Below, piece by piece: positions 7,391 through 42,945 of a stretch of DNA of 64,000 nt. Both the position numbers and the translations under genes were made by a program. The notes below the pieces were generated by a model, which saw only the letters and a program-made list of their open reading frames with translations, was not told the DNA's origin and ran no database searches. This DNA is from Planctomycetota bacterium. Lineage in GTDB: Bacteria > Planctomycetota > Phycisphaerae > UBA1845. The DNA lies in assembly GCA_016200265.1 (NCBI GenBank), contig JACQFE010000019.1, positions 1 through 64,000 on the forward strand, written 5' to 3'. How positions within the stretch are numbered: position 1 is the stretch's first letter; every line of letters starts with the position of its first letter.

Positions 7391-8839
7391 TCACCAAGTT
7401 CCCCGTTGCGCGAAATTGAGCCGCCTGGCCGCAAAATGCTCCACAATTCCAGTCGCCGCGCCCGCTGCGTGAATTGCCAGCGCTGCGGCCCAGAACCGAT
7501 CCGCATGACTTCCGTCGCGTCGCGGCGCCGCCAACCGAAAATGACCGGCCTCTGTCACGGTCCGCTCCACGGAATGCCAGTCGCGACGAATGCGTTCATC
7601 CGCGGGGATCACAATTCGTCTGCGCTCGACAGCCACTCGAAGCGCTCCCGCCATTTGCGACTTCAATGCATTCGTGAACACAATGGTTTCGACGCGATGC
7701 GAGCCGAACTGTTCGACGGCCTGTTCCGCCAACTGCATTCCCAATCCGCCGGCGTCAATGCAACAGCGCCGCAATTGCGGAAGTCGCAGCAATTCGCACA
7801 ACAGTTCAAACTGAACGGTGAACGGCGCGTTGCACATTTCCACCAACGCCACAGTCCGCAATTGCTCGGACAGCGCGTGATCTCCCGCAGTCGTTGCATC
7901 TCCACTTGGGGCTCCACTTGCAAATACCCAGAACACGGTCAGATCGCGTCGCCGCCCGATATCCACGCCCGCGAACAATTCGCCTGACTCGGCCGCCAAT
8001 GCACTAATGTCACCATGTGGCACAAGGTTCGCATCCGTGCAGGCCGCAATTTGTTCATACGTCAGGAACGCCGTCGCCTCATCAATGAACTCACAAAGAA
8101 ACTCCTGCCGATAAATCGCGTCATCATCCATCGCCAGACGCATTTGCTCGGCATCGGCCTGCAATCCCTGAGAGATGGCCTCCGTCAACGTCAATGTGTG
8201 GGCCGAAAAGAGCTGGTTCTCGCGGAGTTGAAAGAATGTATTTCCTTTACCCTGCGGAGTTGAGGCCACATCCAGCTCGCCGTCGCCGCGAAGCAGGGTT
8301 GGAAACATGGCCGCCCAGATATCTCGATCATCCGCGTGCATGGCGAATTCGTCGAGGAAAACGTCGCCGGTGAATCCTCGCGCCGTCCGCGGGTTCGCGG
8401 GCAATCCGATGATGCGCACTCCGTTCGGCAATGTGATTTCCAGCGTTTTGCAACACATGCCGCGAAGACTTTGATCATCACGAAATTCCGTCGCAATTTG
8501 CAGGGCCTGGCAATGTGCTCGGGCTTTTTGCATCAACTCCCGGCTCTGCCGTTCGCCGGCGGATAGAAAAATCTGATTGCGCCGCCGCGCGATCCCTCGC
8601 AAGATTCGCCGCAAAGATTTGGTGAAACTCTTTCCTGTCTGCCTCGCCCAGCAATTCCATCGAAACCGTGCACTGCATTCCACGTCCTCGCGCTGGTATG
8701 GCAACAAGGGCACGATCGGCTCTACCGTCGCCGGCACTCTTGATTCGAGATCTTGCGAATCCAAACTTCCACCTCTGGAATTGTCACAACGCCCACCGCA
8801 GGCGAGTTCTATCCACACAACGTCATGGGCGCTCGACAA
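7391..8839 (-). CDS. phage terminase large subunit (Mu gp28-like)
   Basis: Up to 482 residues, from a TTG at 8839 with no strong ribosome site; another TTG about 25 codons in has a purine-rich AGAGGTGGAAG before it, so the exact start is uncertain. The N-terminal ATPase has LLPYQRED, a Walker-A-like ARQTGKS and a Walker-B-like DVFLDEFAM. The nuclease half has FAGVDIGRRRDLTVFWV, CCIDAGGLGMQLAEQ and a C-terminal SHADRFWAAALA. It packages DNA into the head. It is the first gene of the minus-strand phage module; beyond it lies a divergent, non-phage gene with no small terminase between. Confidence 0.85.
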   Translation of the reverse strand: MSSAHDVVWIELACGGRCDNSRGGSLDSQDLESRVPATVEPIVPLLPYQREDVECSARFRWNCWARQTGKSFTKSLRRILRGIARRRNQIFLSAGERQSRELMQKARAHCQALQIATEFRDDQSLRGMCCKTLEITLPNGVRIIGLPANPRTARGFTGDVFLDEFAMHADDRDIWAAMFPTLLRGDGELDVASTPQGKGNTFFQLRENQLFSAHTLTLTEAISQGLQADAEQMRLAMDDDAIYRQEFLCEFIDEATAFLTYEQIAACTDANLVPHGDISALAAESGELFAGVDIGRRRDLTVFWVFASGAPSGDATTAGDHALSEQLRTVALVEMCNAPFTVQFELLCELLRLPQLRRCCIDAGGLGMQLAEQAVEQFGSHRVETIVFTNALKSQMAGALRVAVERRRIVIPADERIRRDWHSVERTVTEAGHFRLAAPRRDGSHADRFWAAALAIHAAGAATGIVEHFAARRLNFAQRGTW

Positions 8840-8887
8840 ATGGCATTTTTTCGTGAATCAGGGGGTCAGGGGGGGTGGAAATTCGCA

Positions 8888-8916
8888 TTGTTTACGGCCG
8901 TCCGTTTTGGTATGCT
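8888..8916 (+). promoter_or_regulatory. sigma70-like promoter for the seven-gene array
   Basis: TTGTTT (8888-8893) and TATGCT (8911-8916) are separated by 17 bp and point toward the first array gene, whose ATG at 8969 follows an AAAGGAGAGAG site. It sits in the 130-bp divergent gap between the terminase and the array. Read by eye only. Confidence 0.45.
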
Positions 8917-8968
8917 GGGCTTGTTCCAGTCTTCGAGGTGCATCCGGTTCATTCAAAGGAGAGAGACC

Positions 8969-10726
8969 ATGCGGAGGGCATACCTGACATTTCGCGAACG
9001 AATTCTGAATCGTGGAATCGCTACCGGCGTGATGGCATTTGTATTTGTCATCTGGAGCGCCGTGCATGGTGTTCCGCCTGACAATTCGATTCGCGGCCGT
9101 GACCCAGACGCTTCGCGGGTTCAGAGACTTGCCACCGGCGACGCTGAGCGAATCGGAAATGTTGTGGCCGGAACCGGCGCGACGCTGAAATTCTATTTCA
9201 CGCCGCGTCCGCCACTGCCGGGAACCGATCCCTCGCTCCCGTACCCTTCGGGATACACAATCAGCGGCCAGAAGCTCACCGTTTCTCGCGGCGGATTCAC
9301 GTCCGCGTGGATTCTTCAGATTGAGGGTTGGGATCCGGATCAAAATGGCCAGCCGCTTCTTCGTACTTTTCAAGACAAGATTGATGCTGCTGGCTTCCTT
9401 GGCTCAAACGCAGTCCCGGCGAATTCCGGTTGCGACCTTGTGTATCCCGCGATCAACTCGTTCCCGTGCCAGAAGACTTGTGTCGGCGGCTCGAACAACG
9501 GCGGCAATTGTACAAACTCAAGCAATTGCCCGAAGACCTGCGCGGGAGGAACCAATAACGGACTGAGTTGCACGTCCAACGCGAACTGCCCGGGCGGCGT
9601 CTGTTCAGGTTCTTGTAGCGTGGATCCTTGCCCAGCCATGCTTGGCGAATCCGGCATAATCTGCGGAGGAGTCGCTTTTGGCGTCTGCGTATGGGGTTGG
9701 CAGGATTTCACCCGAAACGATTGGGTCTTCGCGACAATTACGTCGGTGAACTTCACCACCGGGAAGGGCCTTGTAAGCCCCTCGGGACCGGTTTTTGGCG
9801 GCACGACGGACCCGACTTATGAAATCTTCGACTCGGGCGGCAAGTTCTATACCGGATCGTTGATCCTGCCGGTCCCAGCTTGCTGCAAGGGCGTTTATAC
9901 GATGGGACATGTCGTGGCCGAGACCTTTGCCCAGGACCAGGCCCAGCCCGCGAACGATATCCCCATCGCCGCCTTGATCCCAGGTCAACTGGAGTGCAAT
10001 GTCGATCCGTGCACCTCGGTCACGTGTAACGCGCCGAATGATTGCACGACGCCGGAATACCTCGGTCCGGAGTGTCTGAAAAATCGATTCATCACGGTCA
10101 GTCCGACGGACAACGGGGGACAATCGGCGCTGCGAGTCACGCTGGACTCGCTGCAACATCCCCAGCCCTCGAATTTTGCACAGTTTCCACCGCCCGACTT
10201 TTCAGCGTTCGAGGGTCAAGCCCGATGGGTCGGCCCCGTCTTTGATTGTACTGAAACCGAAATGCCGCGGACCACGTTCAAGTGCGCGTTTCTGCAATGT
10301 ACACCGTTCTACACCAACTGGACGACGTTGCTGGCCGGCAACTGGCTGCACATCACCGGGGCGGAAATCATGCCCAGTTCCGATTACACGATTGACCAAC
10401 TGAATTCCAGTTGCCAGGGGAACGAACAAAACTGTACGGATATCGCCCGCACCGAGCAGGTGAAGACGTCCCGTTACGGAGACTGTATTCCCAATTATCA
10501 GAACCCCACAGCACCGTTTCCGCCGGTTCAGCCGAATGTCTCCGATCAAGCGGCCATTATTGATAAATTCAAATCTGTTTCCAGCGCCATCAGCCGCACA
10601 CGTGCGCAGTTGCAACCAAGTATCATCGGGATGAGTCAGCCGGTTACGATTTCCGACGTCGCTTCCGTAGTCGACGCATTTAGGGGACTCGCTTATGCGC
10701 AAATGGGCCCGCAGCAGTGCCCGTAG
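8969..10726 (+). CDS. secreted Cys-rich array protein 1 (dockerin-like C-terminus)
   Basis: 585 residues from MRRAYLTFRERILNRG, chosen for AAAGGAGAGAG upstream and a following signal peptide (hydrophobic GVMAFVFVIWSAVHG). The N-terminal module starts at [18 protein letters not shown] and includes [16 protein letters not shown] Cys-rich part has two CxGGxNNGxxC-type units. A C-terminal module runs from LGPECLKNRFITVSP through FEGQARWVGPVFDC, FKCAFLQCTPFYTNW and CQGNEQNC to ISDVASVVDAFRGLAY and a final QQCP. Function unknown; extracellular or surface location is inferred. It is the first of seven tandem paralogues and lacks the central CC-x-x-TQCID unit found in the second and third. Confidence 0.85.
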   Translation: MRRAYLTFRERILNRGIATGVMAFVFVIWSAVHGVPPDNSIRGRDPDASRVQRLATGDAERIGNVVAGTGATLKFYFTPRPPLPGTDPSLPYPSGYTISGQKLTVSRGGFTSAWILQIEGWDPDQNGQPLLRTFQDKIDAAGFLGSNAVPANSGCDLVYPAINSFPCQKTCVGGSNNGGNCTNSSNCPKTCAGGTNNGLSCTSNANCPGGVCSGSCSVDPCPAMLGESGIICGGVAFGVCVWGWQDFTRNDWVFATITSVNFTTGKGLVSPSGPVFGGTTDPTYEIFDSGGKFYTGSLILPVPACCKGVYTMGHVVAETFAQDQAQPANDIPIAALIPGQLECNVDPCTSVTCNAPNDCTTPEYLGPECLKNRFITVSPTDNGGQSALRVTLDSLQHPQPSNFAQFPPPDFSAFEGQARWVGPVFDCTETEMPRTTFKCAFLQCTPFYTNWTTLLAGNWLHITGAEIMPSSDYTIDQLNSSCQGNEQNCTDIARTEQVKTSRYGDCIPNYQNPTAPFPPVQPNVSDQAAIIDKFKSVSSAISRTRAQLQPSIIGMSQPVTISDVASVVDAFRGLAYAQMGPQQCP

Positions 10727-10832
10727 CGGATTTTGATTGGAACTCTATGTAAACTGGGAGCATCAACGCGCTTGATTCTAGTTCATGGCGTGTTATTGCC
10801 TGTTTAGACGAATTTGCGAAGGGGAGAATTCC

Positions 10833-12971
10833 ATGTCTCATCACAATCACGCCGTTCTAAGGCTTTCATTTCTACTCGCGGTCGCCGGATATTTTTGTTT
10901 GCCAGCACAGTGGTCCTTTGCGGCTGGACCGCCGACAAAACCGACTGCTGAACGGCTCGTCACCGGTGACGCCGAGCGAATTGGAAACGTTGTGGCCGGA
11001 ACTGGGGCGACACTCAAGTTCTATTTTACCCCGCGCCCGGCACTGCCGGGCACCGATCCGACGCTCGTGTATCCATCTGGCGCCACCATCGTAGGCCAGT
11101 TGCTCACTGTCTCCGGCGGCGGATTTACATCCGCGTGGATTTCGCAGATCGAAGGCTGGGACCCGGACGGTAACGGAGACGTGCTAGTTCGTGCATTTCA
11201 GGACAAAATCGACGGGCAGGGATTCCTGGGTGCAAACGCAGCTCCGTCGAATCCCGGCTGCGACCTCACCTATCCGGCCAGTTCGTCATTCCCTTGCCAA
11301 AAAACTTGCGCCGGCGGCATGAACAACGGCAATCCTTGCTTCACGAATAGCAATTGCCCCGGCGGCACATGCGCCGATCCGTGCCCGTCGATTCTTGGCG
11401 AAGCCGGACCAACATGTGGCGGGCTCGTATCAGGCGTCTGCGATTGGGCGTGGCAGGACATCAATCGTCCGGATTGGGTCGACCCGGGTGTTACTCCCCC
11501 GCCCATCATTTGCGTCGATTGCTATTGGCCTGGTCCCTCGGGCCCAGCCTTTGACTATGCAACGAATCCAGGGCAGGAAATTCATGACGGCGGCTCTCGC
11601 TACTATATTGGAAGCGTCGTTTTGCCCGTCCCTGCGTGCTGTAAAGGTGTTTACACGATCGGCCACAAGTTCGATGAGACCTTCGCCCAGGATCAAGCCC
11701 AGCCCGCGAACGATATCCCCGTCGCCGCCCTCGTGGCCGGTCAATTGAATTGCCAGGTCGGCTCGTGCTGCACCGCAACGCAGTGCATCGACAACCTGAC
11801 CGCAGCTGAATGCACATCGGCAGGAGGCAGTCCTTTCGTGGCGGGCGGCCACTGTCTTAACCCGCCTACGACGGACGGCTGCTGCGATTGCGTTGGGCCA
11901 GGCCCGGCAGGCGACGCCGAGTGTGAATATAATGGTCCGAATCACTGTCTGGTTGGGCACTGCGTCGGCTGCAATTGCGAGTTGCTGCCTAGGTTTGGTT
12001 GGAATCAGCAGACCCAATGTTGCGATGCCGGCACCGGCAACGTCACCACAAAAGCAGTCCCCGATGGTCCCTGCGTGCGCGGTTGCAGTCTGCCCGGCAG
12101 TTACGGCGTTCCGCAAGTCGTCTACACGCCGTCCGGAACCGCGTGCGACACCGGTGCTCAGTGCATCGACTACGAGCAGTGCAACGCCGTCGGCCAATGC
12201 CTGGGCACTCCAACAACCGCCGGCACGCCCTGTACGCTGGCGGGAGGCCCGGACCCGTGCATCAGTTCCGCGTCTTGCGACGGTCAGAGCCATTGCATTG
12301 CCGAGGAATATCTAGGCCCGGAATGTTTGAAGAATCGATACATCACGTTCTCACCACTCGACGTTGGGGGCATATCGGCGCTGCGCGTCACGCTGAACTC
12401 CTTGCAACACCCTCAGCCGCCGAATTTTCCGCAATTTCCGCCGCAGAATTTTTCCGCGTTTGAAGGCCAGGTCCGCTGGGTCGGACCTCCGCAGGATTGT
12501 GATGAGACCGAATCGCCCTCCACGACGTTCAAGTGCGCTTTCCTGCAATGCACGCCGGTTTACGCCGATTGGTCTTCGCTCTTGAATGGAAACTGGCTGC
12601 ACGTCACGGGTGCGGAAGTGATGCCGAGCTCCGCGTATACCTTCGACCAATTGAACGCGAGCTGCCAGGGAAATGAACAATCCTGCGCGGACATTGCCAA
12701 ATCCGCTCAAGTCACAACCGCGCGGTGGGGTGATTGTGTGTCGGCGTATCAGCTTGCCTCGCCACCACTAACCCAACCAAACATCACGGATATCACCGCG
12801 ATCATCAACAAGTTCAAAGGTGTTCCAGGGGCCATCAGTCGCACAAGAGCGCAGCTCGTCCCCAATTCCATCGCCGTAGTCCAGCATATTTCAATCGCTG
12901 ATGTCGCCGCGGGCGTCGATACGTTTATCGCCCTTGAATACGTGCAGCCCGGCCCGCAGCAATGCCCATAG
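10833..12971 (+). CDS. secreted Cys-rich array protein 2 (dockerin-like C-terminus)
   Basis: 712 residues from MSHHNHAVLRLSFLLAVAG, preceded by GGGGAGAATTCC; an in-frame start 16 codons earlier lacks a good site. Signal peptide ends near SFAAGPP. The shared N-terminal module ([18 protein letters not shown]) is nearly identical to that of protein 1. A central segment carries a planctomycete-style unit (CCTATQCIDNLTAAECTSAG), a CDCVGPGP stretch and the CVRGCSLPGSYGVPQVVYTP unit. The C-terminal module (ECLKNRYITFSPLDVGG to GPQQCP) is the degenerate dockerin-like type. Extracellular role inferred, substrate unknown. The gap to the previous gene is 106 bp. Confidence 0.85.
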   Translation: MSHHNHAVLRLSFLLAVAGYFCLPAQWSFAAGPPTKPTAERLVTGDAERIGNVVAGTGATLKFYFTPRPALPGTDPTLVYPSGATIVGQLLTVSGGGFTSAWISQIEGWDPDGNGDVLVRAFQDKIDGQGFLGANAAPSNPGCDLTYPASSSFPCQKTCAGGMNNGNPCFTNSNCPGGTCADPCPSILGEAGPTCGGLVSGVCDWAWQDINRPDWVDPGVTPPPIICVDCYWPGPSGPAFDYATNPGQEIHDGGSRYYIGSVVLPVPACCKGVYTIGHKFDETFAQDQAQPANDIPVAALVAGQLNCQVGSCCTATQCIDNLTAAECTSAGGSPFVAGGHCLNPPTTDGCCDCVGPGPAGDAECEYNGPNHCLVGHCVGCNCELLPRFGWNQQTQCCDAGTGNVTTKAVPDGPCVRGCSLPGSYGVPQVVYTPSGTACDTGAQCIDYEQCNAVGQCLGTPTTAGTPCTLAGGPDPCISSASCDGQSHCIAEEYLGPECLKNRYITFSPLDVGGISALRVTLNSLQHPQPPNFPQFPPQNFSAFEGQVRWVGPPQDCDETESPSTTFKCAFLQCTPVYADWSSLLNGNWLHVTGAEVMPSSAYTFDQLNASCQGNEQSCADIAKSAQVTTARWGDCVSAYQLASPPLTQPNITDITAIINKFKGVPGAISRTRAQLVPNSIAVVQHISIADVAAGVDTFIALEYVQPGPQQCP

Positions 12972-13025
12972 TGAGACGGATTGATGCGCTCGTTCTTATT
13001 GCGAGTTGCAGAAAGGAAGTCACTC
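12972..13025 (+). repeat. conserved array spacer (genes 2-3)
   Basis: This 54-bp spacer contains a block (GATGCGCTCGTTCTTATTGC, then GAGTTGCAGAAAGGAAG) that recurs at 15243-15298 and 20047-20102 immediately before the next start codon. It includes the Shine-Dalgarno sequence, so the duplication unit evidently carried its own spacer. Confidence 0.7.
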
Positions 13026-15242
13026 ATGTCTCGGAGACATTCCATAATGCATTTCGGATTCCTCATCCTGGTCACGAGTGAGGTTTATTTGTTCACAACT
13101 CGAACCGTCGTCGCCAAACCGCCGGCCAATTCCGGCGCCGAAAGGCTCGTCACCGGCGACGCTGCGCGGCTCGGCAGCGTCGCCAACACCGCGTCGGCCA
13201 CGCTTTTCTTTTGGTTCTCGCCCAGCCCCCCTTTGAACGGCAATCATCCTTCACTCGCCTATCCTCCGGGATTCACCTTCCTCGGCCCGCTCATTGTCTC
13301 CAGCGGTTATCCGTTCACTTCTGCATGGAGAGTGTACATGGGCAATTGGGATACCAGCGGTCAGGGCAATATTCGTCTCAGTGCATTTCAAGACCTGATC
13401 GATCAAAATGGTCTGCTGGGAGCGAATGCCTCACCACCCAGTCCCGGATGCGACCTGGTGTTTAACGGAAACGGTTGGGCGGCTTGCCACAAGACCTGCG
13501 CGGGGGGCGCACAAGACGGAATCCCCTGCGACACGGACGCAAAGTGCCAAGGCGGTGGCATCTGCACGGATCCGTGTCCCGCCATTCTTGGTGAGAACGG
13601 ACCCAAGTGCGGCACATGGACCGGGGGATTTTGTGATTCCTATTGGGTAAATGATCTCCAGCAAGATTGGGTCTTGGCGGGATTGCCTCCATCCGAGCGA
13701 GATAGCGGCCCAATGCCGCCGAACCTGGGCGCCCCTGGGTTCATGGGAACAGCAACTTTTGGCCACGAAGTCGTTGATCCGGGATCCTTGCGCTACGTGG
13801 GGACTGCGACAGTACAGGTGCCGGAATGCTGCCTTGGTACTTACACCATCGGCCACGTGGCTGCCGAGACATTCGCCCGAGACCAGGCCCAACCGGCGAA
13901 CAACATTCCCATTGCAGCCCTCACCGCCGGGCAAATAAGCTGCCGAAAAGGCAAATGTTGCACGCCGACACAGTGCATCGATGACCTGACGGCAAGCGGG
14001 TGCGCGGCCGCGGGAGGAGAAAACGGACCCCCCAGTTTCATAATAAGTCAAACTTGTACCAATCCTCCCACGACCGACGGTTGTTGCGAATGCTCGATTC
14101 CTTCAGACTGTAACGATAACGACCGTTGTACTGTGGATATATGCGGTTGCCAGTGCTCTCATGAGCGCAGATCAGGATGGAATTCCAACAGGTGTTGTAA
14201 TCCGGATACGGGAGCTGTTGCCACGAAGGCCATTGCTGACGGACCATGTGTCCGCGGATGCAGTTTGCCCGGTGATTATGGCGTTCCACAAATTGTGTAT
14301 TCGCCAGCCGGAACTCCCTGCCCCTCCGGCACCGGCAACCAATGCTTGGAGAATGAAGTTTGCGACGACACCGGCCATTGCACCGGAACGCCCAAACCAA
14401 TGGGCACACCCTGCATTCTTACTGACCTGTGCATATCCGACGTGTCGTGCGACGGTGCGGGACACTGTCTGGGTACCGCAAGCCCCCAAGGTACACCATG
14501 CACTCTTTCCGGAGCTCCGGATCCGTGCATCACCTCTTACGCCTGTGATGGCCAAAAACACTGCATCGCTCAACAAGACCTCGGTCCGCAATGCTTGAAG
14601 AATCGCTACATCACCTTTCTTCCGCAGGATACCGGAGGGCTTTCGGCGCTCCGTGTGACGTTGAATTCGCTTCAGCACCCGCAGCCGCCCAATGATCCGG
14701 CATTTCATCCGCAGAATTTCTCTGCATTTGAAGGTCAATTCCGCTGGGTGGGACCGTTGCAGGATTGCGAGGAATCGGAATTGCCTCCATCGTCATTTAA
14801 GTGCGCGATCTTGCAATGCACGCCGCTTTATGCCGACTGGGCTTCGCAATTGAGCGGCGAATGGTTGCAAGTCATGGGTGTGGAGGTGATGCCGAGTTCC
14901 ACATACACAATTGAGCAGTTGAATGCATCATGTCAGGGCAACGAGCAAGCCTGCTCCGATGTTGTGACTTCCGCGCTCTTAAGAACCGCCCGCTACGGCG
15001 ACTGTGTCCCTACATATCAGGATCCAAGCGCTTCCTCCTCCTCACAACCGAACGTCTCCGATGTCAGTCACATCGTCGACAAGTTCAAGGCAGTTCCCGG
15101 CGCCATCAGCCGCACGCGTGCTCAAATGCAGCCAGGCGTCATTGCCGTCGGACTACGCGTTACGATAGCCGACGTGGCCGTAACCCTCGACGCATTTAAG
15201 GGACTTGCGTATGCACAGCCTGGTCCGCAGAATTGCCCATGA
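13026..15242 (+). CDS. secreted Cys-rich array protein 3 (dockerin-like C-terminus)
   Basis: 738 residues from MSRRHSIMHFGFLILVTS with AAAGGAAG upstream; signal peptide through TRTVVAKPP. The N-terminal module is recognisable but diverged (AERLVTGDAARLGSVANTAS, FTSAWRVYMGNWDTS). The middle has CCTPTQCIDDLTASGC, CVRGCSLPGDYGVPQIVYSP and three TPC-type repeat units ending in CDG-x-x-HC. The C-terminal module (QCLKNRYITFLPQDTGG to GPQNCP) is the dockerin-like type. It is probably co-transcribed with its neighbours, with only 54-56 bp spacers on either side. Function unknown. Confidence 0.85.
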   Translation: MSRRHSIMHFGFLILVTSEVYLFTTRTVVAKPPANSGAERLVTGDAARLGSVANTASATLFFWFSPSPPLNGNHPSLAYPPGFTFLGPLIVSSGYPFTSAWRVYMGNWDTSGQGNIRLSAFQDLIDQNGLLGANASPPSPGCDLVFNGNGWAACHKTCAGGAQDGIPCDTDAKCQGGGICTDPCPAILGENGPKCGTWTGGFCDSYWVNDLQQDWVLAGLPPSERDSGPMPPNLGAPGFMGTATFGHEVVDPGSLRYVGTATVQVPECCLGTYTIGHVAAETFARDQAQPANNIPIAALTAGQISCRKGKCCTPTQCIDDLTASGCAAAGGENGPPSFIISQTCTNPPTTDGCCECSIPSDCNDNDRCTVDICGCQCSHERRSGWNSNRCCNPDTGAVATKAIADGPCVRGCSLPGDYGVPQIVYSPAGTPCPSGTGNQCLENEVCDDTGHCTGTPKPMGTPCILTDLCISDVSCDGAGHCLGTASPQGTPCTLSGAPDPCITSYACDGQKHCIAQQDLGPQCLKNRYITFLPQDTGGLSALRVTLNSLQHPQPPNDPAFHPQNFSAFEGQFRWVGPLQDCEESELPPSSFKCAILQCTPLYADWASQLSGEWLQVMGVEVMPSSTYTIEQLNASCQGNEQACSDVVTSALLRTARYGDCVPTYQDPSASSSSQPNVSDVSHIVDKFKAVPGAISRTRAQMQPGVIAVGLRVTIADVAVTLDAFKGLAYAQPGPQNCP

Positions 15243-15298
15243 TGAAAGACATTGGGATGCGATCATTCTTATTGCGAATTGCTGAAGGGAAATAAACA
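15243..15298 (+). repeat. conserved array spacer (genes 3-4)
   Basis: 56-bp spacer with GATGCGATCATTCTTATTGC followed by GAATTGCTGAAGGGAA, closely matching the spacers before genes 3 and 6. It carries the ribosome site of the fourth array gene. Confidence 0.7.
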
Positions 15299-17863
15299 AT
15301 GTCTCAGCGGCATTCCATGGCAAGATTCGGATTCCTTGTTGCGATCATCAGTGCAATTCATCTGTTTACAGTGCAAACCGTCGTCGCCAAACCACCCACT
15401 GCCTCGCAAACCGAACGCCTCGTCACCGGTGACGCCGCGCGCATCGGCGAGGTTGTAGCCGGCACCGGCGCCACACTCAAATTCTATTTCACGCCGCGCC
15501 CGCCGCTGCCGGGAAATGGGAGCAATTTTGACTACCCCACGGGATGGAGTATCAATGGTCAGGAGCTCACGGTTTACAATGGCGGTTTCGTGTCGGTTTG
15601 GATCACCCAGATTGAAGGTTGGGATCCGGATCAAGACCACCATCCGCTTCTCCAGTTTTTCCAGGATCAGATCAATGTGCCGGGCCAGAACATATCCCCG
15701 CCGAATAGTTGCGCCCTGTCTCTACTACCTAGTCTATTTTCATGCACAAAGACATGCTCAGGCGGCGCGCAGGATGGCAATACCTGCACAAGCGATGCGA
15801 AGTGCATAGGTGGGGTGTGCATGGACCCATGCCCGGAGTTACTCGGGGAGAACGGTCCGGAGTGCGGCGCGGATCACCACGCTGGCTACTGTCCTGGGAG
15901 CTGGCAGAATCCAACTCGGTCGGACTGGATTTTCGCCGGATTGACCTCCGATCATGAGCTTCACAGCTCGACGGTGCTCGACGACGCTTTTGGTGGACCC
16001 TTGTTCAATGGAACGACAGACGGAATTTCTCAACGATTCGACAGCGGTGGAAGATTTTACACCGGGACATTGCTTCTTTCCGTACCTCTATCGTGTTGCA
16101 AGGGGACTTACACAATATCGCACAAGGCGAGCAAGACGTATGCCATCGACGAGGCCGTGCCGTCGAATTCGATTCCAATTGCGGCATTGATCAGCGGTCA
16201 GCTTGAGTGTCAGATTGGCCGGTGTTGCACCAACATTGGCAGTTCGAATACATGCACCACAAATGTGAACTATTTCGAATGCAATTCCCTTCCCAGCAGC
16301 AACGGGCATGTCTTTTTGCCCGGCTCGACCTGCACGACGCCATGTTGTGCCCCAGCTGGTTCGCCCTGTCATTTCTCCATCCCGCATCCAGAATGCATCA
16401 CTGGCCAACACTGCGACTCCACGGGCATCTGCGTAAATGACCCCGCGCCGGAGAGTACACCGTGCAACCTCACTTCGAGCAATCCTTGCTTGTCGCCGGA
16501 GGTCTGCGATGGGCAGGGCGGTTGTTTCCAGCATGATCCCGTGCCGGAAGGCACATCGTGCAATCTCACTTCCAGTAACCAATGCTTGTCGCCGGCGGTC
16601 TGCGATGGGCAAGGCAATTGTCTCCAGAATGATCCCCTGCCGGAGGGCACATCGTGCAATCTCACTTCCAGTAACCAATGCTTGTCGCCGGCGGTCTGCG
16701 ATGGGCAAGGCCAATGTTTCCTGCCCCCCGCCCCAATGGGCACTGCATGTACGCTGCAGGGCGCTTCGAATGATCCTTGCTTGTTGCCGGCGATTTGCGA
16801 TGGTGCAGGCAATTGCTTCCAGCCTCCGGCAGAAATGGGAACGCCTTGCATTTTGCCGAACAGCGTGTGTACGACCGATCCTTCGTGCAACGGACAAGGT
16901 CAGTGTGTCAGACAGCCTGCTCCGGCCGGAACGCCTTGTAACCGTGTGTCCACCAGTCCGTGCCTGGTCAATCCCATTTGCGACGGGCAAAGCAATTGCG
17001 TATTTCAATTCGCGAAGGCTGGTACTCTTTGCACATTGACGAACAGTCCATGCCAGGCTAACCCTTCTTGCGACGGCCAAGGGAATTGTGTCGGACAGTC
17101 TGTTCCCGTCGGGACGCCATGTACAATTGCGAGCAATCCCTGCCTGGCGAATTCCACTTGTAATAGTGCCGGCAATTGTGTCGGCGGGGTGAACGATAAC
17201 GGCCCCGAATGCCTCAAAAATCGCTACGTCACAATCGCTCCTGAAGCTACCGGCGGCCTATCGGCACTTCGCGTCACACTGACATCTCTCATGCACCCGC
17301 AGCCGCCGAATCTTCTGCAATTTCCGCCGCCGAACTTTACCGCTCTTGAAGGCCAAATCCGTTGGGTGGGTCAGATCAATGATTGTGAAGAAACGGAATT
17401 GCCGCCAACAATTTTCAAGTGCGCGTATTTGCAATGCACACCTTTTTACGCCGATTGGTCGAGTCAACTGAATGGCCAATGGCTGCACCTCATGGGCAAA
17501 GAGATTGTCCCGAGCTCGCTTTACACGATCGATCAGTTCAATGCGAGCTGCCAGGGCAATGAATCAAACTGCGCCGACATTGCCATGACCGTCCAAGTTG
17601 AAACGGCCCGACATGGTGATGTCGCACCTGCTTTTCAGCTTACCGCTCCCGGTTCGCCTCTGACTCAGCCGAATATTTCCGATGTGAGCGCAATCGTTGA
17701 CAAATTCAAAGGCGTGCCGACCGCCGTCAGCCGCACGCGGGCTCAGCTTGTGCCCGGTGCCATCGGGATCAATCAACGCGTGTCGATCACCGACGTCGCC
17801 ACCGACGTAGATGCTTTTGTAGGTTTGTCTTACATACAACCCGGCCCGCAGCAGTGTCCGTGA
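15299..17863 (+). CDS. secreted Cys-rich array protein 4 with tandem CDG repeats
   Basis: 854 residues, the longest of the array, from MSQRHSMARFGFLVAI with GAAGGGAA upstream; signal peptide through QTVVAKPP. The N-terminal module (AERLVTGDAARIGEVVAG form, here TERLVTG) is followed by a CSGGAQDGNTC unit. Residues about 375-630 hold eight or nine roughly 30-residue repeats of the form GTxCNLTSSNxCLSPAVCDGQGxC, three almost identical even in DNA. The dockerin-like module (ECLKNRYVTIAPEATGG to GPQQCP) ends the protein. Six cysteines per two repeats suggests disulphide-locked extracellular rods; this is inferred. Substrate unknown. Confidence 0.85.
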   Translation: MSQRHSMARFGFLVAIISAIHLFTVQTVVAKPPTASQTERLVTGDAARIGEVVAGTGATLKFYFTPRPPLPGNGSNFDYPTGWSINGQELTVYNGGFVSVWITQIEGWDPDQDHHPLLQFFQDQINVPGQNISPPNSCALSLLPSLFSCTKTCSGGAQDGNTCTSDAKCIGGVCMDPCPELLGENGPECGADHHAGYCPGSWQNPTRSDWIFAGLTSDHELHSSTVLDDAFGGPLFNGTTDGISQRFDSGGRFYTGTLLLSVPLSCCKGTYTISHKASKTYAIDEAVPSNSIPIAALISGQLECQIGRCCTNIGSSNTCTTNVNYFECNSLPSSNGHVFLPGSTCTTPCCAPAGSPCHFSIPHPECITGQHCDSTGICVNDPAPESTPCNLTSSNPCLSPEVCDGQGGCFQHDPVPEGTSCNLTSSNQCLSPAVCDGQGNCLQNDPLPEGTSCNLTSSNQCLSPAVCDGQGQCFLPPAPMGTACTLQGASNDPCLLPAICDGAGNCFQPPAEMGTPCILPNSVCTTDPSCNGQGQCVRQPAPAGTPCNRVSTSPCLVNPICDGQSNCVFQFAKAGTLCTLTNSPCQANPSCDGQGNCVGQSVPVGTPCTIASNPCLANSTCNSAGNCVGGVNDNGPECLKNRYVTIAPEATGGLSALRVTLTSLMHPQPPNLLQFPPPNFTALEGQIRWVGQINDCEETELPPTIFKCAYLQCTPFYADWSSQLNGQWLHLMGKEIVPSSLYTIDQFNASCQGNESNCADIAMTVQVETARHGDVAPAFQLTAPGSPLTQPNISDVSAIVDKFKGVPTAVSRTRAQLVPGAIGINQRVSITDVATDVDAFVGLSYIQPGPQQCP
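16425..17195 (+). repeat. tandem ~90-bp coding repeats in array gene 4
   Basis: Repeated units encode GT-x-CNLTSSN-x-CLSPAVCDGQG. The units around 16530-16620, 16620-16710 and the one before them share long identical stretches (for example CAATCTCACTTCCAGTAACC). Later units have diverged. This suggests recent local expansion by unequal crossing-over or slippage, added to older copies. Confidence 0.75.
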
Positions 17864-17915
17864 AGTTTTCCCAATGAGTAAGATTGAGGCTCGACGGATG
17901 ATTGCAGTGTACTGA

Positions 17916-17957
17916 AAAGGGAAATCCAATGACAAGAAAGGGAAATCCAATGACAAG
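17916..17957 (+). repeat. 21-bp tandem duplication of ribosome site and start codon
   Basis: Two perfect copies (17916-17936 and 17937-17957) of a 21-bp unit, AAAGGGAAATCCAATGACAA plus G. Each copy has its own Shine-Dalgarno-like AAAGGGAAA and ATG (17929 and 17950). They are in frame, so the array-5 protein can begin at either ATG, seven codons apart. Confidence 0.9.
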
Positions 17958-20046
17958 ACAACGTCCTCAATCGAATCTCGCGCTGCTTGCTGCGGTCACG
18001 AGTGCGGTCTATTTGTTCGCGGCTCGAAATGTTCTCGCCAAGCCACCGGCCACCAGCGGTGCCGAAAGATTCGTCACCGGAGATGCCGAGCGGATTGGAA
18101 GCGTTGCTGCCATTGTTCCTGCGGGGGTTGTGGTATCCCTTGTGCCGATCGCTGACACGGGAAACTATCCGGACGGCTATTCGATTTCAGGAAACCATCT
18201 TCTGGTTTCCGGAGGCGGCTTCACTTCGGTCTGGCTCACAAAAATGGAGGGTTGGGAGAATGCGCCCGGTCATCCGCAACTTCGTGCCTTCCAGGACCAA
18301 ATCGACGTCAACGGTTTTCGAGGCGCGACTGCGACTCCACCGTATCCCGGGTGCGATTTGCCTTATCCGCCGGATGTTTCTTGTACAAAGACATGCGCGT
18401 CGGGGTCGCTTTATGGTCATCCCTGTTCATCCGACCTCGATTGTCAGGGAAGCCTGTGCAAGGACTCGTGTAAATCGACTCTTATTTACGAAGGCTCTCA
18501 TTGTGGCACTCTTGCTCCCGGAGTTTGTGACTGGGCATATGAGAATCCGTTCGATACTGGCGGCATTTTCCAGGGAATTCCGCAAAATCAGTACGTGATT
18601 TCAGTGGACGTGACGAATCCGGCCGGACCGATCTTCTCCGGTTCCACGCAACCGGGCTTCGAGGTGGCATCTTCGACTGAGCACCATAATGTCGGGACGC
18701 TGTTGATCTCCGTGCCGCTCTGTTGTCGGGGCACTTACACAATCGGGCATGTTGCGAGCGCGACGTTTGCGAAGGATCAGGCACAGCCTTCGAACTCCAT
18801 ACCGATTATCCAATTCTCATCCGGACAACTGGAATGCCAGACCGGGGCGTGCTGTACAACGGGATCCAACGTTCCCTGTGGAGCGATATGCACGGAGGGC
18901 ATTTCCAAAGCGGAGTGTGACGCAATGCCATCCCGCGACGATCGGCATAACTTCAGGGTCAATGTCCTTTGCTCGGATTGTGTCGGCTGTTGCGACGATT
19001 GCGACGCATGCACGGTAGAAGGTTGTGGCGTCCCTTGCATTCACACGCCGAAACCGGGATGGGCGCCGGGCGGGTCGACGTGCTGCGATTCGATCACCGG
19101 GGAGCTCACGCACCTCATTTTGGGGAATTCAGGCTGCTTGATACCGAATTGCAGTGAGCCGAATTCGCATGGAACGGTCGTCATGACGCCGGCGCCGGCA
19201 GGTACACCCTGTTCGAGCGGGTCTTCTTGCATCCTGAACGAACAATGTGATAACAGCGGAAATTGTGTTGGAACCCACCTTCCTCAAGGAGCGGATTGTG
19301 CGTATCCGACGCTTGGCAGTGATCCATGCATTGGATCGGCCGCTTGTGACGCCCAAAGCCGTTGCATTCCCGCCGAATATCTCGGCCCGGAATGTTTGAA
19401 GAATCGTTACATCACATTCTCGCCAATTGATGTTGGAGGAGTATCTGCGCTGCGCGTCACGTTGGACTCATTGCAACATCCCCAGCCGCCGAATCTCCCC
19501 CAGGTTCCGCCCCCGAACTTCTCCGCATTTGAAGGGCAGATACGCTGGGTCGGGCAGGTGAACGACTGCGAGGAAACGGAATCGCCGCCGACCTCTTTCA
19601 AATGCGCGTATTTGCAATGCACGCCGGTGTATGCGAATTGGACCGCGCTGCTCAACGGACAATGGCTGCACTTGATGGGGCCGGAGATCATGCCCAGCTC
19701 GCTCTACACCATCGATCAACTGAATGTGAGCTGTCAGGGAAACGAGCAAAACTGTTCGGATGTTGCCGCCACGACACAGGTTGAGACTGCACGAAACGGC
19801 GACTGCTTTCCGCCTTATCAGGACCGAACTACTGGTGCCCCTCTTACTCAGCCGAACATTTCGGACGTGTCCGCCATCGTCGACAAATTTAAGGGTGTTC
19901 CGACCGCCATCAGCCGCACGCGGGCACAACTTGTCCCCAGCACGATCGGCATCAATCAGCGAGTGTCGATCACAGACGTCGCCACCGATATCGATGCGTT
20001 CATCAACCTCCCTTACTACCAGGCAGGCCCCCGGAATTGCCCATAA
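17929..20046 (+). CDS. secreted Cys-rich array protein 5 (dockerin-like C-terminus)
   Basis: 705 residues from the first of two duplicated starts (MTRKGNPMTRQRP; the second ATG at 17950 is equally possible). Signal peptide through RNVLAKPP. The N-terminal module is the most diverged of the array ([20 protein letters not shown], lacking the [11 protein letters not shown] part). The centre has CCDDCDACTVEGCGVPC and CSSGSSCILNEQCDNSGNC units. The C-terminal module (ECLKNRYITFSPIDVGG to GPRNCP) is strongly conserved. Its upstream spacer differs from those of genes 3, 4 and 6. Extracellular; function unknown. Confidence 0.85.
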   Translation: MTRKGNPMTRQRPQSNLALLAAVTSAVYLFAARNVLAKPPATSGAERFVTGDAERIGSVAAIVPAGVVVSLVPIADTGNYPDGYSISGNHLLVSGGGFTSVWLTKMEGWENAPGHPQLRAFQDQIDVNGFRGATATPPYPGCDLPYPPDVSCTKTCASGSLYGHPCSSDLDCQGSLCKDSCKSTLIYEGSHCGTLAPGVCDWAYENPFDTGGIFQGIPQNQYVISVDVTNPAGPIFSGSTQPGFEVASSTEHHNVGTLLISVPLCCRGTYTIGHVASATFAKDQAQPSNSIPIIQFSSGQLECQTGACCTTGSNVPCGAICTEGISKAECDAMPSRDDRHNFRVNVLCSDCVGCCDDCDACTVEGCGVPCIHTPKPGWAPGGSTCCDSITGELTHLILGNSGCLIPNCSEPNSHGTVVMTPAPAGTPCSSGSSCILNEQCDNSGNCVGTHLPQGADCAYPTLGSDPCIGSAACDAQSRCIPAEYLGPECLKNRYITFSPIDVGGVSALRVTLDSLQHPQPPNLPQVPPPNFSAFEGQIRWVGQVNDCEETESPPTSFKCAYLQCTPVYANWTALLNGQWLHLMGPEIMPSSLYTIDQLNVSCQGNEQNCSDVAATTQVETARNGDCFPPYQDRTTGAPLTQPNISDVSAIVDKFKGVPTAISRTRAQLVPSTIGINQRVSITDVATDIDAFINLPYYQAGPRNCP

Positions 20047-20102
20047 TGAGACACATTGACATGCGATCGCTCTGCTTGCGAATTGCCGAAAGGAAGCAAC
20101 CC
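20047..20102 (+). repeat. conserved array spacer (genes 5-6)
   Basis: 56-bp spacer (ACATGCGATCGCTCTGCTTG, then CGAATTGCCGAAAGGAAG) that matches the spacers before genes 3 and 4, although the gene that follows belongs to the other C-terminal class. Confidence 0.7.
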
Positions 20103-21632
20103 GTGTTTCGACAGATGACTATAAAGAATCTCGGATTTCTCGTTGCGGTCGCGAGTGCGATTTGTGTGTTCACAAATCAGTCTGTTGTCGCCAAGCCGCC
20201 TGCCGCTTCCGGGGCCGAACGCCTCGTCACCGGCGACGCCGCACGAATCGGACATGTTGTGACCGGCACCGGCGCCACGCTGAAATTCTATTTCACTCCG
20301 CGACCGCCGCTTCCCGGCGCTCTTTTTTCGTTGGCGTATCCGCAGGGCTACAACATTACGGGTCAAAAGCTCGTTGTCTCCCGCGGTGGGTTCTACTCCG
20401 CATGGATCACACAGATTGAAGGCTGGGACCCAATGGGCACAGGGAATCCGTTGCTCCGCTCGTTCCAGGACAAGATCGATGCGAACAGCTTTAAGGGCGA
20501 AAACGCATCACCGCCCAACCCCGGCTGCAACCTGGTTTACCCCGCAGTCGTCATTGCGTGTCAAAAGGTTTGCGCGGTTGGCGTCAATCATGGCAGCCCC
20601 TGTACTACGAATGGTAATTGTCCCGGCAGTACCTGTGTGGACCAATGTCCCAACCTGCTGGGAGAGCCCGGGCCGAAGTGTGGTGGCACCATCGCTGGAG
20701 TTTGTGACTGGGGTTGGCAAAACACCTTTCGCGCAGATTGGGTGTTGGTCGCAAATGCCCCGAGCGATCAAATCGCTGTTGCGCAGATTGTTTCACCGAC
20801 GGGCCCGGTTATCGCCGGCGTGACGTATCCCGGTGTTGAGATTTTCGACACGGGCGTTCGATATTATACGGGCACTCTTGTGCTTCCGGTTCCGGCTTGC
20901 TCCAAGGGCGTTTACACAATCGGTCACAAGATCGACGAGACGTTCGCCCAGGATCAGGCCCAGCCGGCGAATGACATCCCTGTTGCCGCGTTTGTGGCCG
21001 GGCAGCTTTCGATTCCGACCGGTTCATGCTGCACGGACTTCACCACGCCGTCGCAGGCGACATGCACGCCTTCGTTATTCCTTGCCGGGTGCGACGCACT
21101 CACCAGCACCAACCTGCACGTCTTTCGCCCGGACACCGACTGCAACATTCCTTGCGCCGTGGAATGCGTGGCCGACGCCGATTGCGACGACCTTGCTGAA
21201 TGCACGGATGACACATGTGCTCCCGATCAAACATGCCTTCACACGCGCAACGAGGCAAGATGTAACGACGGCCTCGATTGCACGGACGACGTTTGCACCT
21301 CGGAGGGAGCCTGTGTTCACACACTCAGCCCTGCTTGCAACGACGGCGTGGATTGCACGATTGACGCCTGCGCCCCCAATGGCGCATGCGTTCACACCCT
21401 CGACGATGCCATTTGCGACGATGGCCTGTTCTGCAACGGAGCGGAAACCTGTACCGCGGCCGGTTGCCAATCCGGCGAGCCTCCATGTGCCATTGGCGAA
21501 ACCTGCGACGAGAACGCCGATACCTGCACATTCATTCCCATCCCGACCGTATCGCAATGGGGCCTTGCGGTGATGGCGCTCATGCTTCTAATTGCGGCGA
21601 AGATCGGCTTTCGCAGACGCGCGATGAATTGA
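20103..21632 (+). CDS. secreted Cys-rich array protein 6 with IPTL-CTERM sorting signal
   Basis: 509 residues from a GTG (fMet-FRQMTIKNLGFLVAVAS), chosen because GAAAGGAAG precedes it and the spacer aligns with those of genes 3 and 4. Signal peptide through QSVVAKPP. The N-terminal module (AERLVTGDAARIGHVVTGTG) is the standard one. In place of the dockerin-like module it has CDDLAECTDDTCAPDQTC-type repeats, about four of them, and a C-terminal [20 protein letters not shown] segment followed by RRR. That matches the IPTL-CTERM sorting tail (motif, membrane helix, basic end), which is thought to be processed by exosortase H. Likely surface-attached. Confidence 0.86.
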   Translation: MFRQMTIKNLGFLVAVASAICVFTNQSVVAKPPAASGAERLVTGDAARIGHVVTGTGATLKFYFTPRPPLPGALFSLAYPQGYNITGQKLVVSRGGFYSAWITQIEGWDPMGTGNPLLRSFQDKIDANSFKGENASPPNPGCNLVYPAVVIACQKVCAVGVNHGSPCTTNGNCPGSTCVDQCPNLLGEPGPKCGGTIAGVCDWGWQNTFRADWVLVANAPSDQIAVAQIVSPTGPVIAGVTYPGVEIFDTGVRYYTGTLVLPVPACSKGVYTIGHKIDETFAQDQAQPANDIPVAAFVAGQLSIPTGSCCTDFTTPSQATCTPSLFLAGCDALTSTNLHVFRPDTDCNIPCAVECVADADCDDLAECTDDTCAPDQTCLHTRNEARCNDGLDCTDDVCTSEGACVHTLSPACNDGVDCTIDACAPNGACVHTLDDAICDDGLFCNGAETCTAAGCQSGEPPCAIGETCDENADTCTFIPIPTVSQWGLAVMALMLLIAAKIGFRRRAMN

Positions 21633-21643
21633 GGGAGAGAACG

Positions 21644-23155
21644 ATGAATAATGCACGACAACCAAGATGTCCAGCATCCTACATGCGCCTTTTTATGGCG
21701 ATCTTTGTATGCGCTGCTATCGGCTTGATGACTTTGGTTGGTGTTAATGCCGCGCAGCCGACCAGTCGTGGACGCGGCGAGGTAACTGAGTACCAGGCGT
21801 CTCATATTCAACGATTGGTTACCGGCGACGCCGAGCGAATCGGAAACGTTGTGGCCGGTACAGGTGCGACGCTGAAATTCTATTTCACACCGCGCCCTCC
21901 GCTGCTGGGAACAGAGCCATCGTTGGCCTATCCGACGGGGTGGAACATTTCGGGTCAGAAGCTCACCGTCTCCGGCGGCGGATTTGCGTCGGCATGGATT
22001 ACGCAGATCGAAGGCTGGGATCCGGATGGTAATGGCGACGTGCTCTTGCGCTCCTTTTCCGATGTGATTGATGTCTATTCTCTCTTTGGCGACAGCGCTT
22101 CACCCCCCAATACCGGCTGCGATGTTATCTACTCGCCTGTCGGATGGATTCCGTGCCAGAAAACCTGCGCCGGCGGCACCAACAACGGAAGCCCCTGCAA
22201 TGGGAATAGCAACTGCCCGGGCGGCGCATGTTCCAATCCGTGTCCGACGATTCTCGGGGAAAACGGCCCGCGATGTGGTTATTGGGCTTCGGGTATCTGC
22301 GACTCTATTTGGCAGAACACGGATCGGGCAGATTGGGTCTTGGGCAGCTATCCACCGCAACCGGAAGGAATTTTTGACGGACTCCCATGCTTTCATGGCC
22401 CGTGTTTCGGTGGAACGACGCCATTGGGGGTTGCGGTATCCGACGCCGGATTGCGTTATTACACAGGCACAGTCACGCTGCAGGTTCCTGCATGTTGCAA
22501 AGGCACGTACAAAATGACACACTTCGCTGAATTGACATTTGCCAACGATCAGGCCCAGCCCGCGAACAATATCCCCATCGCCGCCCTCATTAGCGGACAA
22601 TTGGAATGCATCGCCGGATCCTGTTGCACTGATTTCACTTCGACATCTCAGGCATCGTGTACGTCCAACATACTTCTCTCCGAGTGTAACGCGCTAAGCA
22701 GTTCGAATCTGCACATTTTTCGAGATGGTATCGACTGCACGACGCCCTGCGGGGTTGAATGCGTGACGGCGGCCGACTGCGACGACCACAAGTTGTGTAC
22801 GGCAGATTCATGCACATCCGACGGTCACTGTGTGCATACGCACACCGACGCCATTTGTGACGACGGCGTGATCTGCACGATTGACACCTGCGCCGCAAAC
22901 GGCACCTGCGTTAACACGCCCGATGATTCACGTTGCGACGATGGTCTTTTCTGCAATGGCGTCGAATACTGCACCGCAGCCGGCTGCGCTTACGGCGATC
23001 CGCCCTGCGGGTTTGGCGAAACCTGCGACGAAACGACCGATTCCTGCGAACTCGTTCCGATCCCGACAGTTTCCCAATGGGGGCTGACGATACTGGCTCT
23101 ACTCGTTCTCATCGCCGCGAAAATCCGCTTTCGCATCCAGCCCGATTTGCGGTAA
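21644..23155 (+). CDS. secreted Cys-rich array protein 7 with IPTL-CTERM sorting signal
   Basis: 503 residues from [17 protein letters not shown], with GAGGGAGAG upstream and only 11 bp after the previous stop. Signal peptide helix [18 protein letters not shown]. The shared N-terminal module runs from [19 protein letters not shown]. Cys-rich repeats ([54 protein letters not shown]) lead to [20 protein letters not shown] and a basic end. Its last third is a close copy of gene 6. It is probably anchored or sorted by exosortase H; that enzyme is not in this window. It closes the array. Confidence 0.86.
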
Positions 23156-23410
23156 TAACCGTCGTTATCTGCCCTGATGCCGGGTCCGATCTTTCGATCC
23201 GCAGGCCTTGCTTGACGAGACAATTCAATCGCCTCTACGATTCGACCGTGGCAGAGGATGCGATCACCGCTAACGCCCGCCCAGCCGTGCCTTGCTCTTG
23301 CGGCGAATAAGGTTGGATCGCGTTGGCAGCCGTTTGCCGCGGCGAAAGGCGAAACCTCGATTAGGAGCTTGCCAGGGGCGGGTAGCGTGAATTTGAATGA
23401 AGCCCTGACG

Positions 23411-23435
23411 CGGAATTCCTCCATTCCACTATAAT
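23411..23435 (+). promoter_or_regulatory. possible promoter for the FG-GAP lipoprotein gene
   Basis: A perfect TATAAT (23430-23435) lies 100 bp before the lipoprotein start; the best -35 match (CTGACG ending at 23410) is 19 bp away, longer than ideal. The rest of the 379-bp gap (23156-23534) shows no convincing gene. Confidence 0.3.
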
Positions 23436-23534
23436 GGCCGCAGGTACGTTGCGTGGAACGGTTCGAAGCCTGAAAAAACGTTGTTGCGGCCTCGACAGCC
23501 GTCATCGAAATCGACAAGAAAGAGGAGTGATTTC

Positions 23535-42590: not shown

Positions 42591-42945
42591 GGTGCGGTCT
42601 CCGTCGAAAGACGCTTCGCGCACCTAAATCAAGAGGATCCTCAAGATTCCGGTGAGCGATCGCTGCTTAATCTGTAAGGGAGGTAACAGTGTAATGCCAA
42701 GAAACCGCTGGGTCAACAGGATATTGGGCAATGGCGCGGATTTACCCTAAGTCAGGCGTACCAAACGGATTGCCCACGATCCGAGCGACGATTGCGGTAC
42801 GATCCCCGAGTCAACGTCCGGCGCACCAAAAGCGCGTTTCATCGCAACGGATGAAACTCGAGATACAACCGAGGAATCATCACCAAGTGAAGGTTCTCCC
42901 CCTGCTGAGGCGTCGCTGCGCGTTGGGCGAAACCGACGACTTCGA

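Follow-up and report, generated by a model that had tools for sequence, protein, structure and literature searches.

We describe a tandem array of seven paralogous genes in a planctomycete contig, which we interpret, with a probability of roughly one half, as a modular surface-display locus combining members that would be anchored by an exosortase with members that would be docked by a dockerin with degraded calcium loops. Five of the seven proteins close with a C-terminal domain (CTD) that, as judged by profile comparison, ends in a dockerin descendant and serves in the same genome as a general tag on otherwise unrelated secreted proteins.

Planctomycete genomes encode many dockerins, for which we know of no established partners or purpose. 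The analysis reported here suggests that in one planctomycete family a dockerin has become a C-terminal tag specific to the lineage and carried by dozens of secreted proteins, and relatives display intermediate steps of calcium-loop loss. If the CTD still docks, protein engineering could profit from a cohesin/dockerin-type interaction that depends less on calcium, and the CTD would give access to the way in which these uncultured bacteria build their cell surface. That dozens of other secreted proteins share the tail suggests that the cell surface is decorated by a plug-and-socket system of the bacterium's own making.

Array organization and gene products

The window, that is, the whole 64,000-nucleotide stretch of DNA that was analyzed, carries the array at positions 8969-23155 on the forward strand. 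Re-derived open reading frames reproduced exactly the coordinates, lengths and gaps given for these seven tandem paralogues in an earlier note on this DNA. Each protein begins with a hydrophobic, signal-like N-terminal segment, predicted to be a signal peptide, which is followed by a shared N-terminal module (N-module), a stalk and a C-terminal element. Gene 1 (8969-10726, 585 residues) comprises an N-module (9119-10006) with an additional Cys-rich insert, a 22-residue stalk and a CTD (10079-10723). Gene 2 (10833-12971, 712 residues) combines an N-module (10947-11762) with a Cys-rich stalk and a CTD (12330-12968), and gene 3 (13026-15242, 738 residues) an N-module (13137-13952) with a 213-residue stalk containing 29 Cys and a CTD (14598-15239). 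Gene 4 (15299-17863, 854 residues) has its N-module at 15410-16219, a 330-residue stalk (43 Cys) that includes 2.9 copies of a 96-bp tandem unit with 88% matches (16436-16711), and its CTD at 17216-17860. In gene 5 (17929-20046, 705 residues), the N-module (18061-18846) is joined to its CTD (19399-20043) by a 182-residue stalk with 25 Cys. Genes 6 (20103-21632, 509 residues, GTG start) and 7 (21644-23155, 503 residues) encode N-modules at 20214-21023 and 21806-22618, respectively, followed by a stalk and an IPTL-CTERM segment (~21540-21620 and ~23060-23119). Stalk length thus ranges from 22 to 330 residues across the array, with ~14-15% Cys in the six genes other than gene 2.

Intergenic gaps of 106, 54, 56, 65, 56 and 11 bp, in array order, are consistent with the array being probably one transcription unit, and a purine-rich ribosome-binding site precedes all seven starts. 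The start region of gene 5 (17916-17958) consists of a perfect 21-bp duplication spanning the ribosome-binding site and the start codon, so that 17929 and 17950 can serve equivalently as its start. The promoter that had been proposed at 8888-8916 was rejected, since sigma-70-like sites are no commoner between 8600 and 23700 than in shuffled sequence (four, against a mean of 7.3) and none falls at that position.

A Pfam scan of genes 1-5 returned nothing except one chance-level match, and in genes 6 and 7 it returned IPTL-CTERM and weak Cys-rich repeats; the NCBIfam scan agreed in both cases. Together with the signal-like starts, these results support the previous description of the products as secreted, Cys-rich, surface-type proteins devoid of a recognized enzymatic domain. 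That description passed over the C-termini, where the CTD of genes 1-5 and the IPTL-CTERM of genes 6 and 7 are located.

On its left side the array is adjoined by Mu-like phage genes (3072-8839, reverse strand) that point away from it and were identified with Pfam as terminase, Mu portal, Mu-like protease and major head gpT. Shortly after gene 7 comes a gene (23535-27521, forward strand) for a protein of FG-GAP repeats whose start is lipoprotein-like and in which a dockerin-like internal stretch not reported by Pfam can be seen by eye (FNGDGSVDTNDL ... DYDNDGDIDDDD).

The C-terminal domain as a general tag

The CTD spans ~213 residues and ends in Gly-Pro-x-x-Cys-Pro or near variants of this motif; array copies share 62-68% identity with the gene 1 copy, and searches of Pfam, the PDB and NCBIfam gave no family that explains the domain. 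A CTD profile yielded 77 matches in the array's own genome, corresponding to 67 open frames in the fetched stretches and 50 full-length domains. Of these domains, 46 lie no more than 12 residues from the stop codon, and Cys-Pro closes 41 of the 46 frames concerned. Signal-peptide-like starts were detected in 39 of 47 CTD frames, with three frames cut by contig ends and five lacking such a start, against a background of 99/200. According to Pfam, the 43 carriers outside the array contain mutually unrelated domains, including beta-helix, FG-GAP, MauG (cytochrome peroxidase), Kelch, RCC1 and M12B reprolysin, none of which occurs in more than four of the 43; peptidase domains on CTD carriers comprise M12B, trypsin-like, subtilase with P-domain (S8) and M1. 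Since these domains are unrelated, the CTD is, on the evidence of domain content, a general tag on secreted proteins that are otherwise unrelated. The window contains one such carrier that is unlinked to the array: an RCC1-repeat propeller encoded by an 878-residue open frame on the reverse strand (39990-42623), with its CTD at 39990-40634.

The CTD alignment comprised 47 rows, with six of 53 candidates left out as fragmentary or internal. Among 49 CTDs, those of the array group together in one clade (support 100/100), from which we infer that tandem duplication followed the gain of a CTD by one N-module gene. Two proteins encoded elsewhere in the genome (L036 and L044, on contigs C41 and C75) present the order CTD, N-module, CTD within one polypeptide. 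A scan of viral contigs for the CTD gave 128 pattern matches, of which none was confirmed.

The CTD is lineage-restricted, being frequent within a single planctomycete family. At an E-value of 1e-6 it was found in 23 of 60 genomes, the array's own included, and the 15 genomes with at least ten copies all belong to the array's own family; in a phylum-wide sample of 294 genomes only the array's own genome matched. A Phycisphaerae metagenome-assembled genome (L087) encodes a CTD relative with 37% identity. Ordinary dockerins are fewer in CTD-rich than in CTD-poor genomes of the family (15 vs 21 genomes), with medians of 27 vs 56 (P 0.002, phylogeny ignored), where per-genome counts are those among the matches listed (at most 50 for the CTD and 88 for dockerin).

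Dockerin ancestry of the CTD tail

The final ~65 residues of the CTD contain two repeats, each with an Ile-x-Asp-Val motif and then a helix. As a dockerin reference we used 20 PF00404 matches from the same order, and the tail alignment left out four of the 47 own-genome tails, which lack the start motif. Compared directly with these dockerins, the own-genome tails gave a P of about 1.4e-4, a score that none of 300 column shuffles reached. Twelve intermediate tails from relatives were matched by hhalign to the dockerins with a probability of 96.8 (P 2e-10, 51.5 bits, shuffles at most 26.1) and to the own-genome CTD tails with a probability of 98.3 (P 2e-14, 73.2 bits, shuffles at most 16.2); neither score was approached in 100 column shuffles. 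In some such intermediates, loop 1 (WGDVNNDGSVDIFD) is a canonical calcium loop and loop 2 bears a three-residue insertion. Since the intermediates match both dockerins and CTD tails, the last ~65 residues of the CTD are, by the measure of these profile comparisons, a dockerin descendant.

Divergence from dockerin is nonetheless extensive, with the Pfam Dockerin_1 model matching none of the 47 own-genome CTDs at E-values up to 1. Loop 1 is enlarged, and in loop 2 an Asp at position 1 occurs in none of the five array CTDs vs 34 of the 42 other own-genome CTDs, while Asp or Asn at position 9 occurs in none of the five vs 37 of 42. The array CTDs do not carry calcium ligands in both loops, and their residues place them as the furthest case of loop-2 decay among the CTDs of the genome. 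The missing ligands could also mean that docking itself has been lost.

Alternatively, the CTD may be a secretion or sorting signal for dedicated export machinery, like the type IX CTD and MYXO-CTERM, instead of a docking module, and its dockerin ancestry would then be no more than history. Such a signal would fit a lineage-restricted domain that sits, with an almost fixed Cys-Pro end, at the extreme C-terminus of dozens of mutually unrelated secreted proteins in each genome, as well as the missing calcium ligands of the array CTDs. We nevertheless regard this reading as rather unlikely, because four of the 50 full-length CTDs are internal, two of them in the CTD/N-module/CTD proteins, one further full-length CTD is followed by additional residues, and the domain has neither the transmembrane segment nor the basic end typical of CTERM signals. 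The type IX component SprA_N matched none of 36 genomes, and the control genomes likewise gave no match.

The N-terminal module and its relation to cohesins

The N-module covers ~270 residues (262-296 as cut, with the gene 2 copy recut by hand to 272), and the other six copies share 45-68% identity with the gene 2 copy. An N-module profile scored 470-562 bits in six array genes, and in gene 1, where the insertion interrupts the match, the two parts scored 251 and 263 bits; sharing across the seven genes is far beyond chance.

The Pfam Cohesin model (PF00963) did not match the seven array proteins at E-values up to 1, and direct identity of the N-module with cohesin was rejected, as 13 of 150 shuffles scored as high as the comparison between the two profiles. 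A bridging set of 12 simpler domains from relatives, which lack the Cys-rich insert, matched the N-modules (P 7e-9) and the cohesins (P 9e-5, 59% probability), with none of 150 shuffles as high in either case. The latter step gave a P of 5.5e-5 with the 11 cohesins of relatives alone, was lost when only the five cohesins of the own genome were used (P 0.029), and produced no match with reversed or unrelated profiles as controls. The N-module is thus likely to be kin to cohesins, transitively and via intermediates only. By the terms of the earlier note, its reading would fall if the shared module proved to be a known enzyme or binding domain; because the tail is of dockerin descent and the head is moderately and transitively linked to cohesins, that reading is in part undone.

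A search of 60 genomes, among them the array's own, found the N-module in 16, with some of the matches in this survey resting only on Cys-rich columns of the alignment used. The arrangement is not tandem everywhere: outside the array's own genome, at most two neighbouring frames were seen among the matches listed. Within the fetched stretches of the own genome, the N-module family comprises 17 frames, ten of which end in a CTD or dockerin, six in an IPTL-like anchor, as assigned with our own pattern instead of a curated model, and one in neither; the profile behind this count also runs into the Cys-rich stalk, making its coordinates too wide. In a tree, the N-module of gene 6 groups not with the array but with dispersed N-modules, several of them with IPTL-type tails. 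Several proteins of relatives consist of an N-module family domain, a cohesin and a terminal dockerin, in that order. In the relative G032, an N-module protein (L187:1518-3443) terminates in a Peptidase_S74 chaperone-of-endosialidase domain (E 1.2e-10), a phage-tail-type autocleavage domain found here on a bacterial surface protein. None of 257 pattern matches was confirmed in an N-module scan of genome contigs. Among family genomes, the N-module occurs in 15 of 15 CTD-rich vs one of 21 CTD-poor genomes (Fisher P 3e-9, phylogeny ignored), but this co-occurrence is not independent evidence of interaction because both modules are often on one protein.

Sequence searches of the PDB with profiles of the two domains gave best E-values of 0.29 and 0.74. 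AlphaFold2 models, built from window sequences only (six rows for the CTD, seven for the N-module), were poor, with pLDDT values of 45 for the CTD and 40 for the N-module that are below fold-search quality.

Anchors and candidate sockets

Genes 6 and 7 score 26.1 and 21.4 bits against the IPTL-CTERM model (TIGR04174), both above its cut-off of 20.5, and their genome contains 21 matches above this cut-off. Two exosortases are encoded in the genome, with XrtH (TIGR04177) as their best family at 76.8 and 83.5 bits, under the cut-off of 86. The candidate sockets are fewer than the tails, with only five PF00963 matches in the own genome vs about 60 tails. One of the proteins concerned (L181:659-2074, on contig C15) has 472 residues, matches cohesin twice and finishes with a hydrophobic segment that by eye is much like the IPTL-CTERM of genes 6 and 7, although the curated model does not reach it; its domain content makes it a candidate surface scaffold. 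Another (L035) combines a CTD with a cohesin scoring 23.8 bits vs a cut-off of 24.1. Across the family, at least two cohesin matches were found in 15 of 15 CTD-rich vs eight of 21 CTD-poor genomes (Fisher P 9e-5, phylogeny ignored).

Proposed working and alternatives

In the modular surface-display locus that we favour, each array protein would consist of a distantly cohesin-related N-module, a stalk rich in disulfides and, for attachment, a C-terminal device that can be exchanged. Following export via the predicted signal peptide, an XrtH-like exosortase would process the products of genes 6 and 7 at IPTL-CTERM and fix them in the envelope. The products of genes 1-5, which share their dockerin-descended tail with dozens of other secreted proteins, would plug their CTD into surface cohesin-type sockets, such as those of the two-cohesin protein on C15, or into the N-modules themselves. 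As the array CTDs lack loop-2 calcium ligands, docking is predicted to depend little on calcium. By extension, the array proteins could form a self-assembling surface fibre, in which gene 1-5 products would be socket-and-plug monomers joined head to tail, gene 6 and 7 products exosortase-fixed, socket-only bases, and the CTD/N-module/CTD proteins of C41 and C75 branch points; we consider this extension unlikely. For the array proteins, surface location, docking and polymer formation are all inferred.

Alternatively, the array may encode a set of adhesins in which a substrate or glycan would be recognized by the N-module, the stalk would act as a spacer and the beta part of the CTD would attach the protein to surface polysaccharide, with no protein socket. 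Disulfide-rich stalks of very different lengths would suit such proteins, as would the beta-rich fold suggested by the weak structural models, but the dockerin descent of the CTD tail and the link with cohesin counts would be left unexplained, and we deem this alternative improbable. Least probable is a strict surface-protein diversification locus with recombination or phase switching among copies, the reading of the earlier note: a tandem set of seven divergent paralogues does exist and the gene 4 stalk repeats could alter length, but every copy is complete, silent cassettes are absent, no inverted repeats of at least 20 bp occur in 8500-23800, and the claim of near-identical DNA proved overstated, with N-module DNA diverged to 51-68% pairwise identity and a best local match between copies of 83% over 101 bp, so that a switching or cassette mechanism was rejected.

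Comparison with known systems

In type IX secretion, dozens of secreted proteins per genome that are otherwise unrelated bear one C-terminal tag. The same has been described for MYXO-CTERM (PMC11980579). The CTD shares with both the use of a single C-terminal tag across dozens of unrelated secreted proteins and differs in being a ~213-residue, folded-looking and dockerin-descended domain devoid of a transmembrane segment. The IPTL-CTERM/XrtH system (TIGR04174, TIGR04177) is represented by genes 6 and 7, which exceed the IPTL-CTERM cut-off, whereas the two XrtH-like enzymes of the genome fall just under that of XrtH. GC-type dockerin domain-anchored proteins (NF041540) likewise rely on a dockerin-type C-terminal anchor, but their model leaves 46 of 47 CTDs unmatched and produces no score at cut-off, its weak matches being to one CTD (E 0.077) and to the relative L150 (E 0.016), and the CTD adds a ~145-residue N-terminal part.

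With type I dockerins (PF00404) and the adaptor scaffoldins of cellulosomes, the CTD shares a two-repeat helical C-terminal tail present on many unrelated secreted proteins, relatives that retain near-canonical loops, and cohesins in the same genomes. It differs in its enlarged loop 1 and loop 2 insertion and goes unrecognized by Pfam, and its carriers' domains show no cellulase theme.

The open-access literature consulted on planctomycete dockerins, exosortases, the planctosome and IPTL-CTERM yielded no description of the CTD tail, and the parts of the planctosome account that we consulted name no tail resembling it (PMC6461901). The planctosome has been hypothesized for freshwater Nemodlikiaceae as a peptidase complex of the cohesin/dockerin type (PMC6461901). 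Its anchor is a lamin-tail domain (PMC6461901) where the array has IPTL-CTERM, and the plug of the array has degraded calcium loops, is fused to a beta domain and serves a wider cargo. Both systems are planctomycete and non-cellulosomal, and they have in common candidate adaptor proteins with cohesin and dockerin, M12B reprolysin-like peptidase cargo (two of the 43 CTD carriers here) and P-domain cargo (PMC6461901). In the literature consulted, the planctosome is the nearest known idea to the array system, which would be a variant of the cohesin/dockerin kind.
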